Assembly (NCBI RefSeq): GCF_003815675.1
Contig: NZ_CP033918.1
Span: 682,001-746,000 of the forward strand
Length of the DNA stretch: 64,000 bases
Origin: Chryseobacterium sp. G0186
GTDB taxonomy: Bacteria > Bacteroidota > Bacteroidia > Flavobacteriales > Weeksellaceae
Direction of reading: 5' to 3'
Shown here: one piece after another, positions 46,494 to 60,837 of the stretch
Position numbering within the stretch: the first letter of the stretch is position 1
Layout: every line of letters starts with the position of its first letter
The notes under the pieces: generated by a model
The model's input: only the letters and a program-made list of their open reading frames with translations
Database searches by the model: none
What the model was told of the DNA's origin: nothing
Program-made: the position numbers and the translations under genes

Positions 46494-46910
46494 ATGATGT
46501 CCAAACGTTGCAAATATGCGCTAAAAGCAATGGTCAGGTTAGCAAGAAATTACAATCAAGGCTTTCTGCCCACTTCTATTATTGCACAGGATGAAAATAT
46601 CCCCAAGAAGTTTCTGGAACAAATTCTTCTTGAACTTAAAAGAGCCAAACTGGTAAATAGCAAACAAGGTAAGGTGGGTGGTTATTACCTGATAAAATCC
46701 CCGGATGAAGTTTCATTAGCTGATATTTACCGCATTTTTGATGGGCCAATTGCTCTTACACCTTGTGTATCCCTAAATTTTTATGAAGCCTGTGATGATT
46801 GTGTAGATGAAGCCTCATGTTACCTTAGGAATGAACTTATTATTGTCCGTGAAAAAACCAGAAAAAGCATGATGGAGGCTACTCTGACCTCATTTATCAA
46901 TAAAAAATAA
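46494..46910 (+). CDS. Rrf2-family regulator, IscR/CymR-like
   Basis: The 138-residue regulator has a winged helix (KYALKAMVRLARNYNQGF, IPKKFLEQILLELKRAKLVN and the wing SKQGKVGGYYL) and a Cys-rich loop with Cys91, Cys100, Cys103 and Cys109. Three of these could ligate a [2Fe-2S] cluster as in IscR, or respond to sulfur status as CymR does with CysK. It lies 75 bases before the sulfate-assimilation operon, whose promoter carries an inverted repeat. It is the likely local regulator. Confidence 0.85.
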   Translation: MMSKRCKYALKAMVRLARNYNQGFLPTSIIAQDENIPKKFLEQILLELKRAKLVNSKQGKVGGYYLIKSPDEVSLADIYRIFDGPIALTPCVSLNFYEACDDCVDEASCYLRNELIIVREKTRKSMMEATLTSFINKK

Positions 46911-46923
46911 TTTTTTTTCATTT

Positions 46924-46969
46924 AAATTCTACTAATTTGATAGGAGTTGTAGAATTTTATATATATTTG
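46924..46969 (+). promoter_or_regulatory. Promoter with operator-like dyad of the sulfate-assimilation operon
   Basis: The dyad AAATTCTAC (46924-46932) / GTAGAATTT (46949-46957) with a 16-base centre overlaps the -33 region. TATATTTG, a perfect -7 box, lies at 46962-46969, and the start codon is at 46986. A repressor bound to the dyad would block RNA polymerase, which fits the Rrf2 gene directly upstream. Confidence 0.6.
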
Positions 46970-46985
46970 CAACAACAAATTTCAA

Positions 46986-47705
46986 ATGGAAATGGAAAAT
47001 AGTCTGAAAAATGAATTTGAAAATCTTAAGAAAGAGCTCACAGAAGCTGACTTTCCAACGAGTTTTTTACCAACATTGGTAGAAAGGTTTCCGGATGAAG
47101 TGATCTTTTCGACCAGCTTCAGCTATGAAGACCAGGTGATTACTCATCTGATAAAAAACCTGAATGTAGAAATTTTCACATTAGATACAGGAAGACTTTT
47201 TGAGCAGACTTATGAAACCTGGGCATCTACAAAAGCTTTCTTTAAAAAAGATATTAAGGCCTATTATCCGGATACGGAAGAGTTGAAGAAATTTATATCT
47301 GAAAACGGACCCAATTCATTTTATCAGTCCGTGGAGCAGAGGAAAGCATGCTGTACCATCCGAAAGGTTCATCCCCTGAAATCAGCACTGAAGGGATACA
47401 AGGTCTGGATAACAGGATTAAGATCGGAACACTCTCAAAACAGACAAAATATGCCCTCCCTGGAATGGGATGAAGATAACGGGATCATTAAGTTTCATCC
47501 GCTTCTTCACTGGAGTACAGAGCAGGTGACCGACTACGTCAAAACCCATCATTTACCTTACAATTATCTGCATAAAAAAGGATTTGTAAGCATCGGATGT
47601 GAGCCCTGTACAAGAGCAATCAGAGAGGGGGAAGACTTTAGAGCGGGCCGTTGGTGGTGGGAAGATGCCAATAAAAAAGAATGCGGTCTACATATTCATC
47701 AATAA
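46986..47705 (+). CDS. cysH: Assimilatory APS reductase, thioredoxin-dependent
   Basis: Reduces adenylyl sulfate to sulfite. The 239-residue protein has the PP-loop-like substrate region IFTLDTGRLFEQT and the four cluster Cys: Cys122-Cys123 (KACCTIRKVHPL) and Cys205-x2-Cys208 (GCEPCTR), which bind [4Fe-4S] in APS reductases but not in the PAPS enzyme. Cys233 in ECGLH is the catalytic C-terminal cysteine. No APS kinase gene (cysC) is in the operon, which agrees with direct APS reduction. It is the first gene of the run. Confidence 0.9.
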   Translation: MEMENSLKNEFENLKKELTEADFPTSFLPTLVERFPDEVIFSTSFSYEDQVITHLIKNLNVEIFTLDTGRLFEQTYETWASTKAFFKKDIKAYYPDTEELKKFISENGPNSFYQSVEQRKACCTIRKVHPLKSALKGYKVWITGLRSEHSQNRQNMPSLEWDEDNGIIKFHPLLHWSTEQVTDYVKTHHLPYNYLHKKGFVSIGCEPCTRAIREGEDFRAGRWWWEDANKKECGLHIHQ

Positions 47706-47718
47706 AAAAAAGAAAAAA

Positions 47719-48627
47719 ATGTCAACATATCATTTCAATTATCTGGATCAGCTGGAAGCTGAATCTATTTATATTTTAAGGGAAGTAGCAGGACAGTTTG
47801 AGCGTCCGGCACTTCTGTTCAGTGGAGGAAAAGACAGTATTGTGCTTGCTCATTTGGCTTCAAAGGCATTTCGCCATGGTAAAATCCCTTTCAAATTTGT
47901 TCATGTAGATACAGGTCATAATTTTCCTGAAGTTCTGGACTTTCGGGATCAGCTTGTCAATCAACTGGAGGTTGATCTTGTAGTGCGAAAAGTTGAAGAT
48001 ACCATACAAAAGAAAAGCCTAACAGAACCTAAGGGGAAATTTCCCAGCAGAAACTGGCTGCAGACCTACACATTACTTGATACCATAGAAGAATTTGAGT
48101 TCGATGCCTGTATTGGTGGCGCGCGTAGGGATGAAGAAAAAGCCCGTGCTAAGGAAAGGATCTTCTCTGTCAGAGATGAATTCGGACAATGGGATCCAAA
48201 ATTACAACGCCCGGAATTATGGAGTATTTTCAACGGAAAAATCCAGAAAGGAGAGAACGTAAGGGTTTTCCCGATCAGCAACTGGACCGAACTTGATATC
48301 TGGAATTACATCCGAAGAGAAAGAATAGAGCTGCCTTCCATCTACTTTTCTCATGAAAGAGAAGTGGTAGACCTTAACGGACAATGGATTGCGAATTCTC
48401 ATCATGCATCACTGGAAACAGAAGATATAATCACAGTTAAAAAAATAAGATACCGTACAGTAGGAGATATGACATGCACCGCAGCGGTAGAGTCCAAAGC
48501 AGCAACGATAGATTCGGTGATAGAAGAAATTATAGCAACCAGAATTTCAGAACGTGGAGAAACCCGAATTGATGACCGCGTTACAGAAGCTGCGATGGAG
48601 GATCGTAAAAAAGGAGGCTATTTCTAA
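47719..48627 (+). CDS. cysD: Sulfate adenylyltransferase small subunit
   Basis: With CysN makes adenylyl sulfate from sulfate and ATP. The start is ATG 47719 (MSTYHFNYLDQLEAES), giving 302 residues. The larger open frame from 47599 is overlap with the upstream gene. The PP-loop SGGKDS is present in LLFSGGKDSIVLAHLA, and GGARRDEEKARAKERIFS and FPISNWTELDIWNYI are typical CysD segments. Confidence 0.93.
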   Translation: MSTYHFNYLDQLEAESIYILREVAGQFERPALLFSGGKDSIVLAHLASKAFRHGKIPFKFVHVDTGHNFPEVLDFRDQLVNQLEVDLVVRKVEDTIQKKSLTEPKGKFPSRNWLQTYTLLDTIEEFEFDACIGGARRDEEKARAKERIFSVRDEFGQWDPKLQRPELWSIFNGKIQKGENVRVFPISNWTELDIWNYIRRERIELPSIYFSHEREVVDLNGQWIANSHHASLETEDIITVKKIRYRTVGDMTCTAAVESKAATIDSVIEEIIATRISERGETRIDDRVTEAAMEDRKKGGYF

Positions 48628-48715
48628 AAACAAGCAATCTGGTAATTGGATTAACAATCTTTTATTTAACTCATATTACTCATTGCCATTTACTCATTAT
48701 TGATAATTAAAACGG

Positions 48716-49954
48716 ATGGATATATTAAGATTTATAACAGCAGGAAGCGTAGATGATGGTAAAAGTACCCTTATCGGGCGACTGCTATACGATAGCAAAA
48801 GTATTTTACAGGATCAGTTGGAAGTTCTTGAGAAACATTCTAAAAACAGAAATGAAGACGGGGTAGATCTTGCTCTTCTAACAGACGGATTACGTGCTGA
48901 AAGAGAACAAGGGATTACCATTGATGTTGCCTACAGGTATTTTTCAACTTCAAAAAGAAAATTTATCATTGCTGATGCCCCTGGACATGTACAATATACG
49001 CGTAACATGATTACAGGTGCCTCCAACTCTGATCTGATGGTGATTCTGATCGATGCAAGGAAGGGCGTTATAGAACAGACAAGAAGACATTCCATTATAG
49101 CATCATTACTGAAACTGAAGAAAGTAGCGGTAGCCATCAACAAAATGGATATGGTAGAGTATTCACAGGAAGTATTTGAAACCATAAAGGCAGACTATTC
49201 TAAAATTGCAGACAGCCTTGGGCTAAAGGATGTTAGTTATTTTCCTATTTCAGCCTTTAAGGGAGATAACATTGTTTCCTTATCTTCCAACACAGACTGG
49301 TATCAGGGAAGTTCCCTTTTAGAATATCTGGAACATGTAACCCTGAATGAAGAATTGAATAGCGGAAGCCGTTTTCAGGTTCAGTATGTTATCCGCCCTC
49401 AGACTGAAGAATTGCATGACTATAGGGGATATGCAGGGCAGGTATTGAGTGGGAAATTTCAAAAAGGAGATAAGGTTCATGTTCTTCCTGCAGGAATTAC
49501 AAGTGAAATTGCCAAAATTGAGGTCAACGGAATTGAAAAAGAAGAAGCATTTGAGGGACAACCTGTTGTCATTCATGTTACAGAAGACCTGGATATCAGC
49601 AGAGGAGATATTTTTGCCACAGAAGAACAGCTTCCTGTCATCGAAAAGGATCTTGAAGTTCTGCTATGCTGGCTTGATCAAAAATCTCTGCAACCAGGAA
49701 ATAAATATCTGTTACAGCAAAACAGCAGACTGGTAAGGGCCGTGGTAAAAGAAATAGACTATAAGATTGATGTCAATACCCTTACCCATGAAAAAGCAGA
49801 TGGAGACATTAAACTTAATGAAGTGGTTAAAGTAACTATTAGAACTGCACAGCCTTTGGTGTATGACAGTTTCATCAATAACAAAAGAACAGGTTCTGCA
49901 ATTTTGGTGGACGAGACCTCTAATTCAACTGTTGCAGCCTGCATAATCCAGTAA
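48716..49954 (+). CDS. cysN: Sulfate adenylyltransferase large subunit, GTPase
   Basis: EF-Tu-like GTPase that drives CysD. The 412-residue protein has the P-loop GSVDDGKST, the switch region with RGxT-like EQGITIDVAYRYF, DAPGH and the NKMD base-specific motif, then two beta-barrel domains. No APS kinase domain is fused at the C-terminus, in line with a separate APS reductase. An 88-base spacer before it holds no other gene. Confidence 0.93.
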   Translation: MDILRFITAGSVDDGKSTLIGRLLYDSKSILQDQLEVLEKHSKNRNEDGVDLALLTDGLRAEREQGITIDVAYRYFSTSKRKFIIADAPGHVQYTRNMITGASNSDLMVILIDARKGVIEQTRRHSIIASLLKLKKVAVAINKMDMVEYSQEVFETIKADYSKIADSLGLKDVSYFPISAFKGDNIVSLSSNTDWYQGSSLLEYLEHVTLNEELNSGSRFQVQYVIRPQTEELHDYRGYAGQVLSGKFQKGDKVHVLPAGITSEIAKIEVNGIEKEEAFEGQPVVIHVTEDLDISRGDIFATEEQLPVIEKDLEVLLCWLDQKSLQPGNKYLLQQNSRLVRAVVKEIDYKIDVNTLTHEKADGDIKLNEVVKVTIRTAQPLVYDSFINNKRTGSAILVDETSNSTVAACIIQ

Positions 49955-49957
49955 AAA

Positions 49958-50788
49958 ATGTCAGTTTCAAATCATTTAATTGAAAAAATTCATCAGAGTA
50001 AACAAGACAAGACTCACGGATTCTTTGATAGAACAAGGGTAAAGGCTTTTGTAACAGATTTGTATAAAGCATTGTTTCTTCCTCAGCAAGACAATACAAC
50101 AGATCAATTGGAAAAGGATTTTGCCAAACTGCATGACCATCTTTTCACCCTGACGGATATGATCACAGGAGATAAAGATCTGGCTGAAGTACAGGTAACC
50201 GCTTTTTTTGATGCGTTGCCAAAGCTCTATGATCGGCTTATTCAGGATTCACAATCTATTTTGGAATTTGATCCCGCAGCCGGTTCTTTAGAAGAAATAC
50301 ATCTTGCCTACCCGGGATATTTTGCAACGTATGTCTATCGGATTTCTCATCAGCTTTGGAATCAGGAAATTCCGGTTTTACCCCGAATAATTTCAGAATA
50401 TGCCCACAGTAAAACAGGAATTGACATTCACCCCGGAGCAGTGATTGGAGAACATTTCTTCATCGATCATGGAACCGGAATTGTCATTGGAGAAACAACC
50501 GTTATTGGCAATCATGTTAAAATATATCAGGGAGTAACCCTCGGAGCTTTAAATGTTTCCAAGGAAAAAGCCCACCAAAAAAGACATCCCAATATTGAAG
50601 ACCATGTCATCATTTATTCCGGAGCGACCATTTTGGGCGGAAATACAACCATAGGCAGGGAAAGCATCATCGGAGGAAATGTATGGATCACACAGGATGT
50701 ACCTCCCAATTCCCTGGTCTATCATAAAAGTGAAATAAAAATAAAGGATAACAGTTCATTACCCGAATCTTTAACCTTTGTGATATAA
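49958..50788 (+). CDS. cysE: Serine O-acetyltransferase
   Basis: Acetylates L-serine to O-acetylserine, the acceptor for sulfide. The 276-residue protein has an N-terminal helical domain and a left-handed beta-helix of hexapeptide repeats ([39 protein letters not shown]), with the catalytic His in FIDHGTG. It resembles the EpsC/SrpH type with an extended N-terminus. It starts 4 bases after cysN. Confidence 0.9.
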
Positions 50789-50817
50789 AAAAGAAAAAAA
50801 CAAAAAATTGTATTGGT

Positions 50818-51729
50818 ATGAAATTTCAGAATACATTGGAAACGATTGGAAATACACCAGTCGTAAAGATCAATAAACTATTCAATTCAGATCATGAAAT
50901 CTGGATCAAATTAGAAAAAAGCAATCCCGGAGGAAGCATTAAGGACAGAATTGCACTGGCCATGATTGAAGATGCTGAAGCCAAGGGTTTACTCAATAAA
51001 GACAGCGTTATCATAGAACCTACCAGTGGTAATACAGGAATAGGACTGGCATTGGTAGCCGCCGTAAAAGGATATAAGCTAATTCTGGTAATGCCGGACA
51101 GCATGAGTGTAGAACGCCGTAAAATTATGGAGGCCTATGGTGCTGAATTTGTCCTAACGCCAAGAGAAAAAGGAATGAAGGGTGCCATTGAAAAAGCCAA
51201 TGAGCTGGCACAGGAAACTCCAAATTCATGGGTCCCGAAACAGTTTGATAATCCTGCCAACGTAAAAATACATACCGAAACTACAGCACAGGAAATTTTA
51301 CAGGACTTTCCTGATGGTTTAGATTATATCATCACCGGAGTAGGAACCGGCGGACACATCACCGGAATTGCACAGACAGTAAAAGAGAAGTATCCTCATG
51401 TAAGAGTAATCGCCGTAGAACCGGAACTTTCTCCTGTACTAAGCGGTGGTAGCCCTGCACCACATCCTTTACAGGGGCTGGGAGCCGGATTTGTCCCATC
51501 AATACTGGACATTACATTACTGGACGGAGTCATAACGGTAGGAAAGGATGAAGCCTATGAATATGCCATTAATGCCGCCAAAAAAGAAGGCCTTTTTGTA
51601 GGAGTTTCCACAGGAGCAGCCTTGGCAGCCATTGCAAAACAATTACCGGAAATACAGCCCGGAGCTAAAATTCTCACCATCAATTACGATACCGGAGAAA
51701 GGTATCTTTCCATTGAAGGGCTCTTCTAA
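50818..51729 (+). CDS. cysK: Cysteine synthase (O-acetylserine sulfhydrylase)
   Basis: PLP enzyme that makes cysteine from O-acetylserine and sulfide. The 303-residue protein has [12 protein letters not shown], the PLP-Lys segment [16 protein letters not shown], the substrate loop [11 protein letters not shown] and the phosphate loop [10 protein letters not shown]. Whether it is the A (CysK) or B (CysM) isozyme is not decided by these motifs. The name follows the operon context. Confidence 0.93.
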
Positions 51730-51753
51730 ATCCTTTAACTAATACCGATTTCA

Positions 51754-52599
51754 ATGAGTACAAATATAAAATCACCTAAGGTTTACCTTATCGGTGCAGG
51801 GCCCGGCAACCCTGATCTGATCACAGTAAAAGCTGTAAAAGCTATCGCCAAGGCAGATATTGTTTTATCTGACCGCCTGGTAAGTCCGGAAATTTTAGAG
51901 ACCTATGTCCATAAAAATACAGAAATTATTTATGTAGGTAAAGAATGCAGCAAAAACGCATCTACTCCTCAATCATTGATCAATACCCTAATGGTAGAAT
52001 ATGCCCTTCAGAATAAGACTGTAGTAAGGCTTAAGGGAGGAGATGTTTCTATATTTTCTAACATATTGGATGAATTACAAGTGTTGAAACAAAACTATAT
52101 TCATTATGAAATTATTCCGGGAATTACGGCTGCACTGGGCGCTGCCGCGTATGCAGGGATGCCTTTAACAGCAAGAGGGTATGCCACATCAGTACGCTTT
52201 CTTACCTATTACAAATCAGAAATTCTTACCGAAGAATATTGGAAAGAGCTTGCTATGACCCAGGACAGTCTTGTATTTTATATGTCTAAGGGAAACCTGA
52301 CCGATCTTGTAGAAAAATTCATCCAGCTGAATGTTTCAAAGGAGAAAAAAATAGCTGTGATTGAGCAGGCTACAACACCTTATCAAAAGGTATATACCTC
52401 TTCATTTGATGATTTCAGAAAGACGCTTGGTGAGAAAAACTTCGCCTCACCATCTTTGGTGGTCATAGGGAAGATTGTGAATCTCCATGAGGAATTTTCC
52501 TGGTTGAAAAATGCTGAACAGGACGGTCTTTATTTTAAATCGATTGAAAATGGAACCCTAATCCCTAAAACTCAAAATTTCTTTGAATATGCTGTCTGA
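51754..52599 (+). CDS. cobA: Uroporphyrinogen-III C-methyltransferase (SUMT)
   Basis: Methylates uroporphyrinogen III twice to precorrin-2, the first step to siroheme. The 281-residue protein has the SAM-dependent tetrapyrrole methylase motifs VYLIGAGPGNPDLIT, VLSDRLVSPEIL, VRLKGGDVSIFS and EIIPGITAALGAAAYAGMP. Siroheme is needed by CysI in the same operon. The last gene (59320) supplies the dehydrogenase/chelatase step. Confidence 0.92.
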   Translation: MSTNIKSPKVYLIGAGPGNPDLITVKAVKAIAKADIVLSDRLVSPEILETYVHKNTEIIYVGKECSKNASTPQSLINTLMVEYALQNKTVVRLKGGDVSIFSNILDELQVLKQNYIHYEIIPGITAALGAAAYAGMPLTARGYATSVRFLTYYKSEILTEEYWKELAMTQDSLVFYMSKGNLTDLVEKFIQLNVSKEKKIAVIEQATTPYQKVYTSSFDDFRKTLGEKNFASPSLVVIGKIVNLHEEFSWLKNAEQDGLYFKSIENGTLIPKTQNFFEYAV

Positions 52600-54298
52600 C
52601 ACTAAATTAAACATACTGAAGCAAATATCCAGAGATTTTTCCAGAGATGAATCCATCTGGGCAAGCGGATATCTGGCAGGTCTTGCCGGAGCTCCGCTTA
52701 CTGTAGCTCAACCTCCATTACAGACAGTTTTTACAGAAGAAAATGCTGTCAGGAAAATCACATTGGCCTATGGTACAGAAACCGGAAACAGTAAAAAACT
52801 GGCAACATCCTTGGCAGGAATTATTAAGAAAAAAGGTATTCAGGTTAAGTTAACGGATCTTTCCCAATACAAACCTAAGGATCTTGCTAAGGAGGAATTC
52901 TTCTTTGTGGTTATTAGTACGCAGGGAGAAGGAGATCCGCCGGCTCTCGCCAAAAAGTTTTACGATTATATTTATGAGAATGAGATCAATCTCAGCACCC
53001 TCAAATTTGGAGTACTGGCATTGGGAGACAGCAGCTATCCTCAATTTTGCAAAACAGGTGAAGATGTAGATTCCCGTTTTGAAATTCTGGGTGCTCAACG
53101 TATCATTCCTTTAAAAAAATGTGATATTGATTATGAACAGGATGCTGAAAGCTGGATAGAGCATGTCTTTGAAGCCGTGACCAAAACTTCTGCAGGGAGT
53201 ATCAAAAACACGTCCACTCAAAAAGCTTCAACGGGCAGGAAAAAGTATCAGGGAAAAGTCTCAACAATCATTAATCTGAATGATATTACCTCTGAAAAAG
53301 AAACTTATCACATCGAAATAGAAACAGAGGAAGCATTGGTCTATCAGCCGGGTGCTGCTTTGGGGATTATTCCATTGAATTCCAGTGTGGTTGTGAATGA
53401 AATTATTACACTGACAGGAATTGATCCTAAAAAGCAGATTGAAACGGCAAAAGTTACGGATACTGTAGAAAAGCTTTTGCAAAAACATCTTAATATTAGC
53501 TATTTACTCAAAACGGTAGTAACACAATATGCTAAGATTACAGGGCATTCTATCCCAGAAGTACGTTTAAGTCTTCTTGATCTGCTCCGGATCTATCCTG
53601 TAAAAAATGCAGAAGAATTTGAAGAAGTTATTCAGATACTAACGGGTCAGGCACCCCGTCTGTATTCTATTTCATCGTCTCTGGAAGCTCATGGGGAAAA
53701 TGAAATTCACATCACCGTAGCAAAATCGGAATTCCTTATTGATCATCAGAAACATAACGGTTTATGTAGTGGATTTCTAAGCGAATTCAGAGAGGAAGAA
53801 GATATTGAATTTTACATTCAGGATGCAGGACATTTCAGATTGCCGAAACCTGATCAGGATATCATCATGATAGGACCGGGAACGGGGATTGCGCCTTTCA
53901 GATCATTTCTTTGGGAACGTGACGCCATTGGAGCAGAAGGAAGAAACTGGCTCTTCTTCGGAGACAGAAACTTTGTTTCAGACTTTATTTATCAGGCTGA
54001 ACTTCAGGATTTCCTCAAAACAGGCAGTCTCACTCATTTAGATCTGGCCTTTTCAAGGGATACTGCAGAAAAAATTTACGTTCAGCATAAACTGGAACAA
54101 AAAGCCCAGGAAGTCTTTTACTGGCTTGAGGGAGGGGCATCCGTATACGTATGTGGCGCCAAGGAGCCGATGAGCAAAGATGTTGAAGAAACCCTTTTGA
54201 ATATTATTCAGCATCAGGGAAAACGTAACAAGGAAGAAGCACTTCATTACCTGGAAGAAATGGAACTGAATGGCCGATATGCCAAAGATGTTTACTAA
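52589..54298 (+). CDS. cysJ: NADPH-sulfite reductase flavoprotein
   Basis: Electron-supplying subunit for CysI. The protein has an N-terminal flavodoxin domain (LAYGTETGNSKKLATSLAG, ISTQGEGDPP, LGDSSYPQFCKTG), an FAD-binding insert with RLYSISSS, and an NADPH domain (GPGTGIAPFRSF, FGDRNFVSDF) ending NGRYAKDVY. The start is taken at ATG 52589, which overlaps the cobA stop by 11 bases (569 residues); a TTG at 52583 is the only alternative. It is shorter than CysJ of enterobacteria but complete by motif. Confidence 0.93.
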   Translation: MLSDTKLNILKQISRDFSRDESIWASGYLAGLAGAPLTVAQPPLQTVFTEENAVRKITLAYGTETGNSKKLATSLAGIIKKKGIQVKLTDLSQYKPKDLAKEEFFFVVISTQGEGDPPALAKKFYDYIYENEINLSTLKFGVLALGDSSYPQFCKTGEDVDSRFEILGAQRIIPLKKCDIDYEQDAESWIEHVFEAVTKTSAGSIKNTSTQKASTGRKKYQGKVSTIINLNDITSEKETYHIEIETEEALVYQPGAALGIIPLNSSVVVNEIITLTGIDPKKQIETAKVTDTVEKLLQKHLNISYLLKTVVTQYAKITGHSIPEVRLSLLDLLRIYPVKNAEEFEEVIQILTGQAPRLYSISSSLEAHGENEIHITVAKSEFLIDHQKHNGLCSGFLSEFREEEDIEFYIQDAGHFRLPKPDQDIIMIGPGTGIAPFRSFLWERDAIGAEGRNWLFFGDRNFVSDFIYQAELQDFLKTGSLTHLDLAFSRDTAEKIYVQHKLEQKAQEVFYWLEGGASVYVCGAKEPMSKDVEETLLNIIQHQGKRNKEEALHYLEEMELNGRYAKDVY

Positions 54299-54329
54299 AC
54301 CAATCTCATCACATTAAAAGAAAACAATT

Positions 54330-56003
54330 ATGAGCAATAAAGATAATCTTTCCCCTGTAGAAAAAATTAAGACCCAAAGTAACGGGCTCAGAGGAACATT
54401 AAAGGAAAGCCTTTCAGATGATTTTACGGGAGCGATAAGGGAAGATGACCAAACCCTGATCAAATTCCATGGCATGTACCAACAGGATGATAGGGACAGA
54501 AGAGAAGAACGGGTTTCCAAAAAACTGGAGTGGTTGTATTCCTATATGATCAGACTAAGGCTTCCCGGTGGTTTTTTAACCTCAGACCAATGGATTGGAG
54601 TGAATGACATTGCCCAAAACCATTCTACGGGAACCATAAAAATAACAACAAGGCAGACTCTTCAACTGCATGGTATTTTAAAGTCTCATTTAAGACCAAC
54701 TATTCAGAGTTTTAATCTGAGCCACCTTGATTCTATTGCAGCCTGTGGTGACGTAAACAGGAATGTTACCTGTACCGCTAATCCATCAGAATCCCCACTG
54801 CATCAGCAAACCTACGAACTGGCCGGTAAAATAAGTGAGATGTGTCTCCCAAAAACCCAGTCTTATTATGACATCTGGATTGATGATGAACTGATTGTTG
54901 ACAGAAAAACTGAAGAAGATCCTTTATACCAGGACAGATATCTTCCCAGAAAGCTAAAAATCGGAATTGCTGTTCCACCCAATAATGATGTAGATGTATT
55001 CATCAATGATATTGCCCTGATTGCCATCATTGAAAATAACCAGATTGTGGGCTACAATATTGCTGCAGGAGGCGGATTAGGAGCAACACACGGAAATGAA
55101 GCTACTTATGCACGCCTTGCCTCTGTACTTGGATTTGTAGATTCCGAAGAAAAAGCCTTAAAAGCAGTCTATGAAATCATCACAGTACAGCGGGACTTCG
55201 GAAACAGAAGCGACAGAAAGCTATCAAGATTAAAATATACCATTGATCAGCTTGGAATTGATGGGTACAGAACCGAAGTAGAGAAAAGAACCGGATTCAG
55301 TTTTGAACCAGCCCGAGAATTTAAGTTTGAACAGAGAAAAGACCGTTATGGATGGGTAAAAAATCATGAAGGAAAATGGTTTTATACCCTGTTTGTAGAG
55401 CATGGAAGAGTCCTTGATACTGATGACTATCCTTTAAAATCAGGATTATTAAAAATTGCACAGACCGTTAATGTCAACTTCAGATTTACCTGTAACCAAA
55501 ATCTGATCCTTGCAGATATTACTGAAGAAGAAAAAGTGTTAGTAGAAAGCTTGTTACAGGAATATGGAATTTCAGATTATACTGAAAAAGCAAGTGCCCT
55601 TCGTAAAAATTCTGTTGCATGTGTTGCCTTAAATACCTGTTCACTAGCCCTGGCAGAGGCTCAACGTTATTTGCCATCATTGGTAACCAAAATAGAACCT
55701 GTCCTTGAAAAACATGGTCTTTTGGAAGAAGACATTACCATCAGAATGACCGGATGCCCCAATGGATGTGGCAGATCTCCCAATGCCGAAATCGGATTTG
55801 TGGGAACAGCATATGGTAAATACAATCTCCATATCGGAGGAGACAGACTGGGAATGCGCCTGAATACAAAATTCAAAGAAAATATCGGAGAAGAGGAAAT
55901 TCTTACCACTCTTGATGAGCTTTTCGGAATTTATGTACAGAAAAGATTGACTGAAGAAACATTTGGTGATTTCTCATACCGCTATTTACAAAACTTAAAC
56001 TGA
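54330..56003 (+). CDS. cysI: Sulfite reductase hemoprotein subunit
   Basis: Siroheme-[4Fe-4S] enzyme that reduces sulfite to sulfide. The 557-residue protein has KITTRQTLQLHGI (anion-site Arg), GGGLGATHGNEA, and the cluster cysteines CVALNTC (Cx5C) and MTGCPNGCGRS (Cx3C), which also ligate siroheme. Pairing with CysJ and the sulfate genes argues for sulfite, not nitrite, as substrate. A 27-codon mini-ORF starts 4 bases after its stop. Confidence 0.93.
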   Translation: MSNKDNLSPVEKIKTQSNGLRGTLKESLSDDFTGAIREDDQTLIKFHGMYQQDDRDRREERVSKKLEWLYSYMIRLRLPGGFLTSDQWIGVNDIAQNHSTGTIKITTRQTLQLHGILKSHLRPTIQSFNLSHLDSIAACGDVNRNVTCTANPSESPLHQQTYELAGKISEMCLPKTQSYYDIWIDDELIVDRKTEEDPLYQDRYLPRKLKIGIAVPPNNDVDVFINDIALIAIIENNQIVGYNIAAGGGLGATHGNEATYARLASVLGFVDSEEKALKAVYEIITVQRDFGNRSDRKLSRLKYTIDQLGIDGYRTEVEKRTGFSFEPAREFKFEQRKDRYGWVKNHEGKWFYTLFVEHGRVLDTDDYPLKSGLLKIAQTVNVNFRFTCNQNLILADITEEEKVLVESLLQEYGISDYTEKASALRKNSVACVALNTCSLALAEAQRYLPSLVTKIEPVLEKHGLLEEDITIRMTGCPNGCGRSPNAEIGFVGTAYGKYNLHIGGDRLGMRLNTKFKENIGEEEILTTLDELFGIYVQKRLTEETFGDFSYRYLQNLN

Positions 56004-56007
56004 TTAT

Positions 56008-56091
56008 ATGATACGCCTTATTGACGATCTGAAAAAACTAAAAAAATACCAACCCCTTCTTTCAGGTGAACGAATGTGTATGTGTTGTTGA
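56008..56091 (+). CDS. 27-codon mini-ORF ending Cys-Met-Cys-Cys
   Basis: Starting 4 bases after the cysI stop, ATG 56008 opens a 27-residue reading frame. It begins MIRLIDDLKKLKKY and ends MCMCC before TGA (56089-56091). Cys and Met codons are packed at the last five positions (TGT ATG TGT TGT). The position inside a cysteine-synthesis operon, followed 80 bases later by competing hairpins, suggests a leader peptide that senses cysteinyl-tRNA and controls the downstream receptor and siroheme/TSUP genes. This is inference. A functional small peptide binding a metal or cluster is an alternative. Confidence 0.5.
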   Translation: MIRLIDDLKKLKKYQPLLSGERMCMCC

Positions 56092-56170
56092 TTCTCAAAC
56101 AATGACAACATAGCAGCTGTTTAAACATCTTTGAAAACGATTGAGTTTTATTTTGAGCAAACCATTAAGA

Positions 56171-56221
56171 AAAGTTAAGGTGGTAAGAAAAACCTTACAG
56201 CAAAGCTTACCTCTTAACTTT
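56171..56221 (+). promoter_or_regulatory. Hairpin region with competing pairings downstream of the mini-ORF
   Basis: AAAGTTAA (56171-56178) pairs with TTAACTTT (56214-56221), and GGTAAG (56182-56187) with CTTACC (56206-56211), giving a long interrupted stem. GTAAG can instead pair with CTTAC at 56194-56198, and TTAAGG (56175-56180) with CCTTAA at 56229-56234. Such exclusive choices are typical of attenuators. The sequence after the stem is U-rich but has no clean T-run. Functional meaning is inference. Confidence 0.4.
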
Positions 56222-56262
56222 CTTATAGTCTTATTAGCCCTTAATGGTAAAAACTTTTGGGT

Positions 56263-56335
56263 AAACCACCCCGTCAAAAATTTTTTGAATTTTCGCCACT
56301 CCTCCGGAGGATGAGAATTTTAAGCCCTCCAATTG
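56263..56335 (+). repeat. Dispersed repeat ACCACCCCGTCAAAAATTC-type, copy 3
   Basis: A 73-base copy with the core AAACCACCCCGTCAAAAATT, a GAATTTT arm, a CTCCTCC/GGAGG hairpin and the right end CCTCCAATTG. It lies between the mini-ORF region and the TonB receptor. Apart from the hairpins and this repeat, the 56092-56440 gap holds no gene. Confidence 0.7.
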
Positions 56336-56440
56336 GGATTTGTGTGAGAATATGGGATTTTCATTGAAGCCTTTTGTGCCTAAAAAATCAAAGAGACAAG
56401 TTCAAACAGCTTCATTCTTACTCACCTAAAAAGAAGAACA

Positions 56441-59314
56441 ATGAAAAACAAAAAACAGGGATATTTTCTGCCTAAAACCGGGGTTATACTATTCACATTT
56501 TTATTTTGTAACCTGGCAGAAGCACAACAGCTTATAGAACTAAGCGGAATCATAAAAAACACAGGGACCCAAAAAGGCATTGATGCCGTAAAAGTACAGA
56601 TTGAAAATACGCAGGATTCTGCATCAACAGACCCACTTGGAAATTTTAAGATCAGAACAAGGGTAGCTATCCCGTTTCGGTTAACCATCAATAAAGACGG
56701 TTTTACCAGTCAGACGGTTGAAATTCTTTCCCTTTCAAACAAGCTAAGCATCGGACTTCATCCTCATAATACCATTATTGATGAAGTGGTTATTTCTGCC
56801 TCCCGGGTTCCGGAAAAGATCCTAAGATCTCCAATCGCTATTGAAAAAATTGATATCAAAACGATGAGGGAAAGCCCTGCAGCATCCTTTTATGAAACCT
56901 TAGAAAACGTAAAAGGATTACAATTGTTAACCTCTAGTCTTACCTTAAAAATCCCCAACTCCAGAGGGTTCAATTCTCCCAATAACTTCCGGTTTATGCA
57001 ACTGGTGGATGGGGTAGATGTACAGTCTGCAACGCTGGGAGTGCCGTTGGGAAATGCAATAGGCCCTACAGAACTGGACATTCAGTCAATGGAAGTCACA
57101 CCGGGAGCTGCTTCTGCATTGTATGGAATGAACGCCATCAATGGATTGGCAAGTCTCCAGACTAAAGATCCGTTTACATCTCAGGGATTAAGCGTTTATT
57201 TTCGTGGAGGCGTCAATCATGTAGACAATTTCAATCATAAAATAAGTTCTCTGGGAGAAAGTGCAATACGATTTGCAAAGGCCTTCAATAAAAATCTGGC
57301 GATCAAGGTAAATGCTTCTTACTTTAGCGGTACAGACTGGATTTCAAACTATCAGACGGACCAAAACCCTAATTCGCTCATCACAGCCAATCCAAAATTT
57401 TCATTGTCTGATAATCCTGCAGAAGATCTTTGGAATAAGTATGGAGATGAAAGAAATAACAGGGTCGCCGTAAAAATAGATTACAATGGAAAACCAACCA
57501 CATTCAATGTTGCCAGAACAGGATATCTTGAAAAAGACCTTGTAAGTCCTGAAGTAAAAAATATAAAGTTTGATGCCGGATTATACTACCGTTTTGGTGA
57601 TCAATGGAGAGCTTCCTATGTTTATCGTTACGGATTACTGGATGGAACTTTCCAAAGAGGGAATAAAATCCGTCTGCAGAATGCCACCGTTCAAAATCAC
57701 AAGGTAGAACTTACAGGTAAGGAACTTACTTTCCGAGCGTATGTATCTATAGAAAATACAGGAAATTCCTATAACCTGAAGCCTTTGGCCGATAACCTTG
57801 ACCTAACCAGTCTTTCCAATAACAACTGGAAAAATATATTCCAGACTAGCTTGCAAAATAATATCAATGCAGGAATAGATCTTAACGAATCTTTCATCCT
57901 GGCCCGTCAGGAAGCTGATAAAAATAGAGTAGTTCCGGGAACTGCAGCCTTTGAACAGTTAAAGAATACAATCATCGGGATTAATAACTGGGATTCTGCC
58001 AATGCAGGTATTGCAGGAGCTCCGCCAACAGGAGGAGCCAAACTTGAACAGAAATCCCGCTTTTATCAGGGTGAATTAACGTATGACCTTAGCCGGTTTG
58101 TAAAAATATTCAATCTTCTTGCCGGTGTAGACTACCGTTTGTACAGCATAACTCCTGATGGAAACAACTTTGTAGACTTCAACAGACCTGTCAGTGAAAG
58201 AAATATACCCTTATCCAATGGTACATTCGGTAAGAATGTGATCTACCAGAAATATGGAGCTTTTGCACAGATTACCAAGCTTTTCTTCGGTGATAAATTA
58301 AAGCTTAATGCAGCCTTACGTATGGACAGAAATCCGGAATTTGAAGCAAAGTTGAATCCACGAATCAGTATTGTATATTCTCCTGTTAATCAGCATAATT
58401 TCAGAGCATCCTTTCAAAATGGATACCGTTTCCCATCCTTGTTTGAAGCCCTTTCATTTGTAAATAATGGAAATGTACGAAGAGTAGGTGGACTTTCGAA
58501 AGTGAATGATGGATTAGGCTATCTGGAAAATTCCTACACACTGGCATCTATCGACAGGTTTACTTCTGCCGTAAATGCAGATGTAGACGGAGAAAAAAGC
58601 CAAAACCAGGCTGCTCAGGACAATAAACAGCTTTTAACTGCCGCGAATCTGCAGAAACTACAGCCTGAAAAGATCAATTCATTTGAAGTAGGTTATAAAT
58701 ATGTTTTTTTTAATAATAAACTGGTCCTGGATTGGGATTTTTACTACAACATCTACGAAGGATTTCTTGGACAGGTAGAAGTAGCCGTTCCCAAGAACAG
58801 TCAAATTGGAAGCAATACAGCTGTTCTTGCCATGCTAGACCGAAGTAAACAGGACCGATACAGGGTTTATACCAATAGCAACAGCACCTATAAAAGCTAT
58901 GGAACCTCATTAGGCCTGCGCTATAATGTGATCGGAAACTATAACGTCAATACCAATGTATCTTATAATGATCTTGCCTCCAATGCGAGTTCTGATCTGT
59001 TTATTACAGCATTTAATACCCCAAAATGGATGGTAAATCTGAGTGTAGGAAACAGGGAGATCATCAAGAATATAGGATTTACCCTTGTTGCAAGATGGCA
59101 GAGTAGTTTTGATTGGGAAAGCCCTCTGGCTTCCGGAAAAATTCCGTCTTACTATACCATAGATGCCCAGGCTACATGGAAACTTCCTGAAATACATGCC
59201 AATATAAAAATTGGAGCCACCAATTTACTGAACCGCCGTTACTTCCAATATGCAGCAGGACCTGAAATAGGAGGTTTATATTACCTCGCCTTTACGTATG
59301 ACTTAAAACTGTGA
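56441..59314 (+). CDS. TonB-dependent outer-membrane receptor of the sulfur operon
   Basis: The 957-residue protein has a signal peptide, an N-terminal carboxypeptidase-like beta domain (LSGIIKNTGTQKGIDAVKV), a plug with SAPAAS-like ESPAASFYETLENVKGLQLL and GAASALYGMNAINGLASLQT, and a barrel whose last residues YYLAFTYDLKL fit outer-membrane insertion. By location it probably takes up a sulfur compound such as a sulfonate, sulfate ester or organosulfur chelate (inference). Its stop overlaps the next gene's first codon region, so translation is coupled. Confidence 0.85.
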   Translation: MKNKKQGYFLPKTGVILFTFLFCNLAEAQQLIELSGIIKNTGTQKGIDAVKVQIENTQDSASTDPLGNFKIRTRVAIPFRLTINKDGFTSQTVEILSLSNKLSIGLHPHNTIIDEVVISASRVPEKILRSPIAIEKIDIKTMRESPAASFYETLENVKGLQLLTSSLTLKIPNSRGFNSPNNFRFMQLVDGVDVQSATLGVPLGNAIGPTELDIQSMEVTPGAASALYGMNAINGLASLQTKDPFTSQGLSVYFRGGVNHVDNFNHKISSLGESAIRFAKAFNKNLAIKVNASYFSGTDWISNYQTDQNPNSLITANPKFSLSDNPAEDLWNKYGDERNNRVAVKIDYNGKPTTFNVARTGYLEKDLVSPEVKNIKFDAGLYYRFGDQWRASYVYRYGLLDGTFQRGNKIRLQNATVQNHKVELTGKELTFRAYVSIENTGNSYNLKPLADNLDLTSLSNNNWKNIFQTSLQNNINAGIDLNESFILARQEADKNRVVPGTAAFEQLKNTIIGINNWDSANAGIAGAPPTGGAKLEQKSRFYQGELTYDLSRFVKIFNLLAGVDYRLYSITPDGNNFVDFNRPVSERNIPLSNGTFGKNVIYQKYGAFAQITKLFFGDKLKLNAALRMDRNPEFEAKLNPRISIVYSPVNQHNFRASFQNGYRFPSLFEALSFVNNGNVRRVGGLSKVNDGLGYLENSYTLASIDRFTSAVNADVDGEKSQNQAAQDNKQLLTAANLQKLQPEKINSFEVGYKYVFFNNKLVLDWDFYYNIYEGFLGQVEVAVPKNSQIGSNTAVLAMLDRSKQDRYRVYTNSNSTYKSYGTSLGLRYNVIGNYNVNTNVSYNDLASNASSDLFITAFNTPKWMVNLSVGNREIIKNIGFTLVARWQSSFDWESPLASGKIPSYYTIDAQATWKLPEIHANIKIGATNLLNRRYFQYAAGPEIGGLYYLAFTYDLKL

Positions 59315-59319
59315 TCAAG

Positions 59320-60837
59320 ATGAGCAATTCACTATATCCTATATTTTTAAAACTCGAAAATTTATCATTACTGATTATTGGAGGCGGAAAAATTGCCCTC
59401 GAAAAACTGGAATCAGTACTGGGCAATTCTCCCGGGACTTCCATCAGGCTGGTCGCCAGAGAAATCATCCCTGAAGTAAAGGGGTTACAAGGTCAGTTTA
59501 CCAATATAACCTTGCATGAAAGAGCCTATAATGAGGATGATTTTAAGGATACCGATCTGGCCATTATCGCAGTAAATGATATTGAGCTGGCGGCACAGAT
59601 CCGTGAAGCTGCCCAACAAAGGAATGTATTGGTTAATGTCGCAGACAAACCTGATCTGTGTGATTTTTATTTGGGGTCCATCGTTAAAAAAGGAAGTCTT
59701 AAAATTGCCATTTCAACCAATGGAAAATCTCCAACCATCGCAAAAAGACTAAGGGAAACATTCACGGAAACAATCCCTGATGAAATGGATCTTGTATTGG
59801 ATAATATGCACAATATCCGTAATCAGTTAAAAGGAGATTTTAATTATAAGGTCAAAGAACTCAACAAAATAACCACCCAATATCTATCTGGTGAAACCAT
59901 TCCTCCTCCAAAACCCGATCTGGACATTGAAAAACTCATCAATATTACCAAGATAGCCCAGAGAAAAGCCAATATTTATCTGGCCATTATAGGGGTGATG
60001 CTTCTGTTCGGAATATTGGGTCTTGTGGTTTATCAATTCAATCTTTCTGATGCCATTCAGGATTTTCTGAACAAAGATGGACATATATTTTACTGGATGC
60101 TGTTTGCCGGATTTATGGCAGAAATAGTCGCCGGATCCATGGGAATGGGATATGGTGTGATCTGTACAACAATATTGCTGCTGCTGAATGTTCCACCACC
60201 TGTTGTGAGTGCAAGTATCCATTCTGCGGAGTCTTTTACAACCGCTGCCGGAGGATTCAGTCATTACAAACTGGGAAATGTGAATAAAAAAATGGTCTGG
60301 GTATTATTCCCGTTAGCCATAGTAGGCTCAGTTATTGGAGCATTAACCCTGTCTCATTATGGCGAGCATTATGCCCATATTGTAAAGCCTATTATCGCAT
60401 GTTATACATTATACCTGGGATCAAATATTCTGAGGAATGCCTTTAAGGATAAAAAGAAAAACGGGATCAGAACAAAAAAAAGAACCAATCTCAGAGTATT
60501 GGGATTTGTTGGCGGATTTATAGACTCTTTTGCCGGAGGCGGATGGGGTCCTTTAGTAACCGGAACTTTGATAAAAGAGGGAAGAATTCCCCGTTATGTA
60601 GTTGGAAGTTCAACAGTCGCTAAGTTTCTACTCACCATCACCAGTGCCATCACTTTTATTTTTACCATTGGTATTCATCATTGGAACATTGTGTTAGGTC
60701 TTTTGCTGGGCGGTGTTTTTACAGCCCCGTTTTCAGCAATGCTCACATCAAAACTGCCTACAAAAAAAATGTTTGCTGTGGTTGGAGTAGTGGTAATCAT
60801 TATGAGCCTGATCACCATTGTAAAATCCTTTTTATAA
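59320..60837 (+). CDS. Siroheme synthase (Met8-like) fused to a TSUP permease
   Basis: The N-terminal ~215 residues are a precorrin-2 dehydrogenase/sirohydrochlorin ferrochelatase of the Met8/CysG-N type (LLIIGGGKIALEKLESVL, VADKPDLCDFYLGSIVKKG, AISTNGKSPTIAKRLRE). The C-terminal ~270 residues are an eight-helix TSUP/TauE domain (MAEIVAGSMGMGYGVICTT, FVGGFIDSFAGGGWGPLVT). One protein thus joins siroheme completion and anion transport. The start may be GTG 59311, which overlaps the receptor stop, or ATG 59320. It is the last gene of the sulfur operon. The fusion partners suggest use of sulfite or sulfate (inference). Confidence 0.88.
   Translation: MSNSLYPIFLKLENLSLLIIGGGKIALEKLESVLGNSPGTSIRLVAREIIPEVKGLQGQFTNITLHERAYNEDDFKDTDLAIIAVNDIELAAQIREAAQQRNVLVNVADKPDLCDFYLGSIVKKGSLKIAISTNGKSPTIAKRLRETFTETIPDEMDLVLDNMHNIRNQLKGDFNYKVKELNKITTQYLSGETIPPPKPDLDIEKLINITKIAQRKANIYLAIIGVMLLFGILGLVVYQFNLSDAIQDFLNKDGHIFYWMLFAGFMAEIVAGSMGMGYGVICTTILLLLNVPPPVVSASIHSAESFTTAAGGFSHYKLGNVNKKMVWVLFPLAIVGSVIGALTLSHYGEHYAHIVKPIIACYTLYLGSNILRNAFKDKKKNGIRTKKRTNLRVLGFVGGFIDSFAGGGWGPLVTGTLIKEGRIPRYVVGSSTVAKFLLTITSAITFIFTIGIHHWNIVLGLLLGGVFTAPFSAMLTSKLPTKKMFAVVGVVVIIMSLITIVKSFL

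Follow-up and report, generated by a model that had tools for sequence, protein, structure and literature searches.

A short reading frame of 27 codons that lies between cysI and the gene of a TonB-dependent receptor in Chryseobacterium sp. G0186 is probably a conserved leader of this receptor that acts as a cysteine gauge, a ribosome stalled on it being predicted to free the receptor start for translation. It was studied in a stretch of 64,000 nucleotides (nt) of this genome (contig NZ_CP033918.1 of assembly GCF_003815675.1, positions 682,001 to 746,000 of the forward strand), referred to here as the window, whose first letter is position 1 of all the coordinates given. The frame, a mini open reading frame (mini-ORF) at 56008..56091 of the plus strand, begins with the ATG at 56008, 4 nt past the cysI stop, and ends with the stop codon at 56089-56091; its product, MIRLIDDLKKLKKYQPLLSGERMCMCC, closes with Arg-Met-Cys-Met-Cys-Cys (RMCMCC). 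An earlier note on this DNA had drawn attention to the frame, to its Cys-Met-Cys-Cys end and to its setting in a cysteine operon ahead of a TonB receptor and a siroheme/TSUP fusion gene, and both frame and setting are confirmed, the latter by the gene order rrf2, cysH, D, N, E, K, cobA, J, I, mini-ORF, TonB receptor and cysG/TSUP fusion. The mini-ORF is read as a cysteine gauge because its tail codons are conserved whereas the remainder of the peptide drifts, because the leader is lost together with the receptor, because otherwise unlike peptides share the Cys run, and because this run mostly sits about 47-63 nt before the receptor start wherever the leader stop falls.

The conservation of the mini-ORF was followed from cysI, which was found in 51 of the 98 genomes of the genus that were searched (E <= 1e-100), the 3' side of all 51 genes being fetched. 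An intact mini-ORF ending in RM[CW][MTV]C[CS] is present in 48 of these 51 loci, so that the conservation of frame and tail in relatives, on which the earlier note had staked its proposal, does hold. It follows cysI directly in 46 loci, with an offset of 4 nt in 39 of them and of -4 to +6 nt in the rest, and is found further on in two. In G393 and G042 inserted sequence parts the mini-ORF from cysI and the mini-ORF remains beside the receptor. Other departures are a divergent mini-ORF with the tail SSMCC (G417), a frameshifted copy in a genome that is 75% complete (G391) and, in a locus without the receptor (G004), a remnant lacking both the start codon and the Cys tail. The Cys tail is kept in 49 of the 50 cysI loci that have the receptor, the remaining one being the frameshifted copy. 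Since G004 has lost both elements and the mini-ORF of G393 and G042 stays on the receptor side, it is well supported that the mini-ORF is tied to the receptor rather than to cysI. A search of 99 genomes with the peptide itself returned 26 convincing loci including that of the window, all of them within the genus, 21 at E < 0.004 and the other five weaker but with the reading RMC[MV]CC. No convincing paralog of the leader was found in its own genome (next match at E 1.6), no NCBIfam family matched the 27-residue peptide at E up to 0.01, and no Rfam covariance model matched 56008-56441 at E up to 1.

Selection on the peptide is concentrated in its tail. Across 46 loci the six tail positions read R in 46, M in 46, C in 45, M in 44, C in 46 and C in 45, and both TGT and TGC occur as codons for the tail Cys. 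Calculated from 28-29 distinct sequences, the ratio of non-synonymous to synonymous polymorphism (pN/pS) is 0.03 in codons 22-27, whereas codons 2-21 reach 0.67 and the end of cysI 0.20. In the window these tail codons, CGA ATG TGT ATG TGT TGT, occupy 56071..56088 of the plus strand and are the predicted sensing codons, in a locus where Cys makes up 0.68% of the codons of 11 genes. Two sequence traits of an amino-acid leader are found together here: a short ORF directly before a gene in a sulfur context, with a Cys cluster that is kept and a remainder that is free to change. Were the frame to encode a functional small protein, such as one that partners CysI or the receptor, the constant length of 27 residues in 29 loci and the conservation of K10 and K12 would fit, but such a product is very improbable given the drift of codons 2-21, the separation of the mini-ORF from cysI in G393 and G042, and the leaders of other families described below, which share nothing detectable with that of the window but Cys clusters.

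Leaders of this kind are not confined to the genus. Within the family, one further genus was found to hold orthologs of the receptor (in all, 9 of 120 genomes); a search that took in other families gave one at E <= 1e-120 in 34 of 295 genomes, eight of which, besides the window's, align at 51-59% identity over nearly their full length. Upstream of those eight, frames with CCCC are found in L114, L115 and L117, weaker Cys-bearing frames in L111, L112, L116 and L118, and no Cys-bearing frame in L113. The alignment of nine orthologs was then used as a query, and the best 80 of 434 candidates, picked by the receptor alone, were taken as named loci and read over the 350 nt upstream. They include Pedobacter, Mucilaginibacter, Solitalea, Rufibacter, Adhaeribacter, Segetibacter, Chitinophaga and Dyadobacter, genera whose placement in families is taken here as we assume it to be. 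For counting, 78 of the 80 loci had 250 nt upstream, the receptor start was a scripted choice of the ATG nearest the expected start, and the 605 controls were opening ATGs, from the same loci, of frames that stay open for 220 codons or more, a set that certainly includes some non-genes. Upstream ORFs (uORFs) with at least three Cys in six codons precede 25 of the 78 receptors, compared with 0.42 in dinucleotide shuffles and 8/605 controls, and those with at least four Cys in six codons precede 17 (shuffles 0.01; controls 0/605). A uORF containing CC is found at 35/78 named orthologs (shuffles 1.94; controls 29/605), and one whose CC lies 40-75 nt before the start at 29/78 (shuffles 0.31; controls 4/605). 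An enrichment so far beyond shuffles and controls, together with the purifying selection on the tail, leaves a negligible probability to chance or to neutral read-through with a Cys cluster that has no function.

The Cys runs of these leaders span CC to CCCCC, as illustrated by MKTIVLNTRPIYPSASTRLPSCCCCCA in Adhaeribacter aerolatus, MKNNQLINKQPMCCCCC in Solitalea longa, and the endings HCCCCR in Rufibacter immobilis and SHSCCCCCRF in Pedobacter duraquae. When Cys was masked, the window's leader showed no excess likeness to the 25 strongest leaders of other families (p <= 0.05 in 2/25), and, judged by such comparisons, Cys clusters alone are kept across families while the peptides are otherwise unlike. 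Because Cys codons are kept both within the genus and across families with unlike peptides, the part of the earlier proposal that has the leader reading cysteinyl-tRNA supply and controlling the uptake gene behind it appears well supported at the sequence level. A Cys-rich tail might also act as a nascent peptide that senses metal or redox state instead of cysteinyl-tRNA, in the manner of the CruR-like arrest peptides. CruR-type uORFs before TonB receptors respond to copper (accessible text of PMC12992588), RMCMCC would make a plausible set of thiol and thioether ligands, and the invariant Arg, Met and CGA codon go beyond what Cys codons call for. However, no RAPP/RGPP motif occurs among the leaders read, no fixed flanking motif accompanies the Cys clusters across families, and the gene context is one of sulfur, metal genes not having been searched for, so that we hold such sensing to be quite improbable.

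The distance between the Cys run and the receptor start constitutes another regularity. In the 25 named loci the last Cys lies a median of 57 nt before the receptor start (interquartile range 53-62, range 47-97), and the run falls 47-63 nt before it in 26 of the 35 loci with a CC-containing uORF; for loci with more than one CC frame, the one whose distance came closest to 56 nt was counted. The gap between the leader stop and the receptor start in other families extends from 15 to 82 nt. Short-spacer loci of the genus show the same spacing, with 50-54 nt from Cys to start in 12 of 13, even though the leader stop lies 6-36 nt past CC. The window, with 349 nt between mini-ORF and receptor, falls into a long-spacer group, in which the physical distance from Cys to start reaches 172-677 nt in the 27 loci measured. 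In this group a AGCTGTTTGAA-type segment behind the leader pairs with a segment about 30 nt before the receptor start, and this base stem, which in the window would join the left arm AGCTGTTTAAAC (56115..56126, plus strand) to the right arm GTTCAAACAGCT (56400..56411, plus strand, about 30 nt 5' of the receptor start), pairs better than shuffles at p <= 0.05 in 28 of 30 loci. Closing the base stem would bring the effective distance to 45-59 nt in every one of the 31 long-spacer loci. No close second copy of the base-stem segment was found in the window's own genome. In the second genus of the family (g200) the distance from Cys to start is 93 nt in one locus and 393-410 nt in three, which therefore points to inserts in that genus too.

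What fills the long spacers differs from locus to locus. The earlier note had described mutually exclusive pairings in the window's spacer, and these are present in the letters; as a regulatory feature they fail. A stretch of 171 nt (56090-56260) folds no better than its dinucleotide shuffles (z -0.58, 54 of 200 shuffles being at least as stable), and the proposed hairpins are contained in a palindromic interspersed repeat, CCATTAAG..CTTAATGG, at 56160..56249. With 75-105 nt between its ends, this repeat pattern occurs at nine places in the same genome (reversed-pattern control 0-1) and in 26 of 30 genomes of the genus, the count per genome across these 30 being 0-19 places. The window's own copy has 70 nt between its ends and is found with a range of 60-90, which gives five places including it and none in the control. 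A letter search with the window's hairpin stretch returned weak second copies only (E 0.2 or worse), and the stretch was therefore assigned to the repeat by its ends and make-up and not by close identity. A second interspersed repeat, CCACCCCGTCAAAAATT.., located by genome letter search at 56261..56335, has 23 further matches in the genome. Among the 31 orthologous long-spacer loci, the window included, the palindrome is found in 4, the second repeat in 11 and a third kind in 10, so the hairpin conservation that the earlier note looked for in relatives is missing. Competing hairpins were thereby ruled out as an attenuator: they belong to a scattered repeat that 27 of 31 long-spacer loci lack, and short-spacer loci have no room for them. 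The spacer hairpins are passengers, since they lie within a scattered repeat absent from most orthologous loci. The palindromic repeat also sits between cysI and the leader in L103.

At the level of the output step, the evidence concerns terminators, promoters and the pairing of the Cys codons. No terminator-like site was found in the window between the leader start and the receptor start. The earlier note had also named a separate promoter of the receptor as a finding that would count against its reading; no TAnnTTTG box occurs in the window's spacer or, within 330 nt behind the Cys tail, in any of 44 genus loci (a few spacers run beyond 330 nt), and such a promoter is therefore unlikely. Outside the genus, TAnnTTTG boxes lie within 60 nt of 8 of the 21 leaders scanned, starting 27-58 nt before the uORF. 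When 44 leaders of the genus were folded and inspected by eye, the Cys codons paired with a segment just 3' of the stop, a segment whose sequence varies between clades yet remains complementary to them. In the window, a predicted hairpin at 56079..56113 of the plus strand pairs 56079-56088 with 56105-56113. The duplex energies of the Cys run are below shuffle means in all 44 leaders and reach p < 0.1 in 21, p values that are not independent because the genus rows are related.

These elements can be joined into a mechanism. The leader would be translated, and a ribosome short of cysteinyl-tRNA would stall on the Cys-codon tail and thereby raise the output of the receptor, a step that would act, with less certainty, on translation rather than on transcription termination. 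When cysteine is plentiful, the ribosome would depart and leave the Cys codons to pair with the segment just 3' of the stop, a pairing predicted in the genus, and the resulting structure would crowd the ribosome landing site of the receptor. In the window's group the base stem would loop out the repeat-filled spacer and bring the effective distance to 45-59 nt. The same sensing step could instead serve transcription attenuation, with stalling on the leader preventing intrinsic or Rho-dependent termination before the receptor. Rho could load on the long untranslated spacers of the window's group (172-677 nt); it has been proposed for the terminator-less cys leaders of Mycobacterium (accessible text of PMC1262725), and a terminator-like site is present in 3 of 25 other leaders. 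However, neither the window nor the other 22 have such a site, the 15-82 nt gaps of other families give Rho little room to load, and the competing hairpins belong to a scattered repeat. Transcription attenuation is on this account unlikely, and the read-through mechanism of the earlier note, with hairpins lacking at 27 of 31 long-spacer loci, no terminator-like site between leader and receptor in the window and such sites in only 3 of 25 other leaders, is not supported.

Several observations weigh against the interpretation of the mini-ORF as a cysteine gauge. The tail Arg is encoded by CGA in 46 of 46 loci (56071-56073 in the window) although CGA accounts for 7% of the Arg codons in 11 genes of the locus, and this invariance hints at a constraint beyond the Cys codons; possible reasons are slow decoding and a constraint on the RNA. 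A CC-containing uORF is missing at 43 of the 78 named receptor orthologs, and on a tree of 91 scored receptors leader presence switches at least 15 times. The related leaders of L131-L133 share the peptide NL[LF]LLFNG.G..GDSLC with one to three Cys, and may respond to another signal, or Cys codons may have been lost from them. Spacing has its exceptions, with farther leaders at 81-97 nt (L161, L196, L200, L202) and at 133 nt (L074). Covariation of the base stem does not rise beyond column shuffles (paired cells 195 of 220, against a mean of 194.9 in the shuffles) in a test that preserves column make-up and says little where both arms hardly vary; therefore only stem conservation and effective spacing are used as evidence, and the constant effective spacing could reflect an insert that came with inverted ends. 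Outside the genus, the downstream pairing of the Cys run is not significant (25 loci, combined p 0.07), and for this reason it is not claimed as a general feature. Finally, terminator-like sites are found in L144 and L148, with the T-rich tail within the leader frame, and in L202, right behind the Cys run; they leave our assessment unchanged, because two of them fall within the leader frame itself and no such site was found in the window.

Beyond the leader, a further layer of control is suggested by the regulator gene and the palindrome at the head of the operon. The first gene ahead of the cys operon (46494..46910, plus strand) encodes an Rrf2-family regulator (Pfam Rrf2, E 1e-32), for which the NCBIfam CymR model gives a sub-threshold 70.5 bits (cut-off 195). 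Between rrf2 and cysH, a pattern scan identified the palindrome TCTACTAATTTGATAGG at 46928..46944, a predicted Rrf2/CymR-like operator that is the same word as the palindrome before receptor leaders in other families. The general form of this palindrome, TCTACTNNNNNNNTAGA, was counted in the 330 nt ahead of 78 receptors and is present at 40 of them, compared with 23 of 3162 control pieces, the pattern having been drawn by eye from these same loci before counting. A leader whose CC lies 40-100 nt before the start accompanies a palindrome 100-330 nt away in 21 of 27 loci and a palindrome closer than 100 nt in 1 of 13, and it occurs in 12 of the 38 loci that lack the palindrome. The Rrf2/CymR-like regulator probably governs how the operon as a whole is transcribed. 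In agreement with a sulfur context, homologs of sulfate-assimilation proteins (tblastn, E <= 1e-20) were found near 50 of the 80 named receptors.

Cys-run frames were also observed in front of other genes. The RMCMCC pattern was detected at the DNA level in 7 of 295 genomes across the class, the window's among them (reversed control 1), and of the other six only L036 (G237) looked relevant by eye, with a Cys-rich frame ending in MKTATNHFHSTYMCASMCMCCCMRSSPGVLYSS 228 nt before a gene that, also by eye, resembles a nitrite/sulfite reductase. The TGYTGYTGYTGY-stop pattern, applied to one family, gave mostly noise from other frames; 30 loci were fetched, nine frames passed a length filter and three of these were judged leader-like by reading. 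Two of the three, ending in MCICLDGCCCC (L212, G551) and SLCCCCC (L216, G554), lie 104-122 nt before an O-acetylhomoserine/O-acetylserine sulfhydrylase gene (TIGR01326), and the third, ending in FNKCPCCCC (L221, G555), has its stop 57 nt from a SusC-like TonB receptor and an Rrf2-like palindrome just upstream. In L153, L154 and L168, frames with Cys runs such as CMHNCCC and CCRATGSCCCC (L153:1996, L154:2015, L168:3502) stand about 190-245 nt before a PhyH-dioxygenase gene, its domain scanned in L153 and L168, which lies 2-4 kb upstream of a receptor that has no leader itself. Whether these cases form one system is evenly poised in our judgement: a Bacteroidota cysteine-starvation regulon would use Cys-run leader ORFs at a fixed distance of about 55 nt before the controlled start, acting on translation without a terminator and combined with an Rrf2/CymR-like operator, and would have TonB receptors as its targets, joined in some lineages by O-acetylhomoserine/serine sulfhydrylase and sulfur operons, with a base stem that folds out invading repeats.

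The remaining features of the locus complete the layout. The operon genes cysH, cysD, cysN, cysE, cysK, cobA, cysJ and cysI extend over 46986..56003 of the plus strand, with cysD, cysN, cysE and cysK named from their sequences rather than by a scan, and they are preceded by TATATTTG at 46962..46969 (plus strand), which we take to be a -7 box of the TAnnTTTG type serving the cys operon. The proposed controlled gene, at 56441..59314 of the plus strand, encodes a TonB-dependent receptor with Pfam plug and barrel domains that belongs to an ortholog group in Bacteroidota; among solved structures its sequence matches the colicin I receptor best, at E 2e-06 and in the plug region only. It is followed at 59311..60837 (plus strand) by the cysG/TSUP fusion, in which a domain scan identified the N-terminal domain of siroheme synthase fused to a TauE/TSUP exporter.

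If the interpretation as a cysteine gauge is correct, uptake of a sulfur source across the outer membrane would be tuned by charged cysteinyl-tRNA, apart from the enzymes of the same operon, in a large phylum. Polycysteine leaders would then extend from Actinobacteria and alpha-proteobacteria to Bacteroidota, in a terminator-free and spacing-dependent design. The link to cysteine and sulfur status would provide a lead on the substrate of an orphan TonB receptor family, and the locus would offer a case of a regulatory leader that survives the invasion of its spacer by repeats.

Polycysteine uORFs in mycobacteria were reportedly described by Canestrari et al. in 2020, as a leaderless uORF according to the title; unlike it, the window's uORF lies inside an operon, 4 nt 3' of cysI, and not at the 5' end of a transcript. 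In Rhodobacterales, the uORFC-8-2 motif before cysS shares with the window's leader tandem Cys codons of a uORF placed within a first stem, but it ends in an intrinsic terminator and controls a tRNA synthetase, whereas the window has no terminator (accessible text of PMC8632094). CruR and the RAPP/RGPP arrest-peptide uORFs resemble it in preceding TonB receptors and differ in their endings, since the leaders studied here end in Cys codons, that of the window in RMCMCC (accessible text of PMC12992588). Within the same phylum, leader-peptide attenuation has been suggested before amino-acid biosynthesis operons of Flavobacterium psychrophilum, and the accessible text of PMC9723704, its supplement aside, mentions neither a cysteine leader nor a TonB receptor controlled by one. 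In the titles, openings of abstracts and passages that the literature search covered, with few subscription journals and no supplements, no cysteine leader is described for Bacteroidota or ahead of a TonB receptor; the earlier note likewise knew of such leaders in Actinobacteria and of none in this group. The closest relatives are indeed the Cys-run leader peptides of the cys operons of Mycobacterium, Propionibacterium and Bifidobacterium (accessible text of PMC1262725), one of which, the polycysteine leader of M. smegmatis, is reported to work by translation attenuation, as cited in the accessible text of PMC13236596. As far as these sources describe them, the actinobacterial leaders are, like the window's, short ORFs with a Cys-codon run near the stop that stand before sulfur genes, with no conserved terminator hairpin in Mycobacterium; in contrast to them, the Bacteroidota leader is proposed to control a TonB receptor and keeps a roughly fixed spacing from Cys run to start. 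Cys-run leaders as such are therefore known, and it is their setting in Bacteroidota and before a TonB receptor that appears new, the leader itself being backed by an unusually broad comparison.
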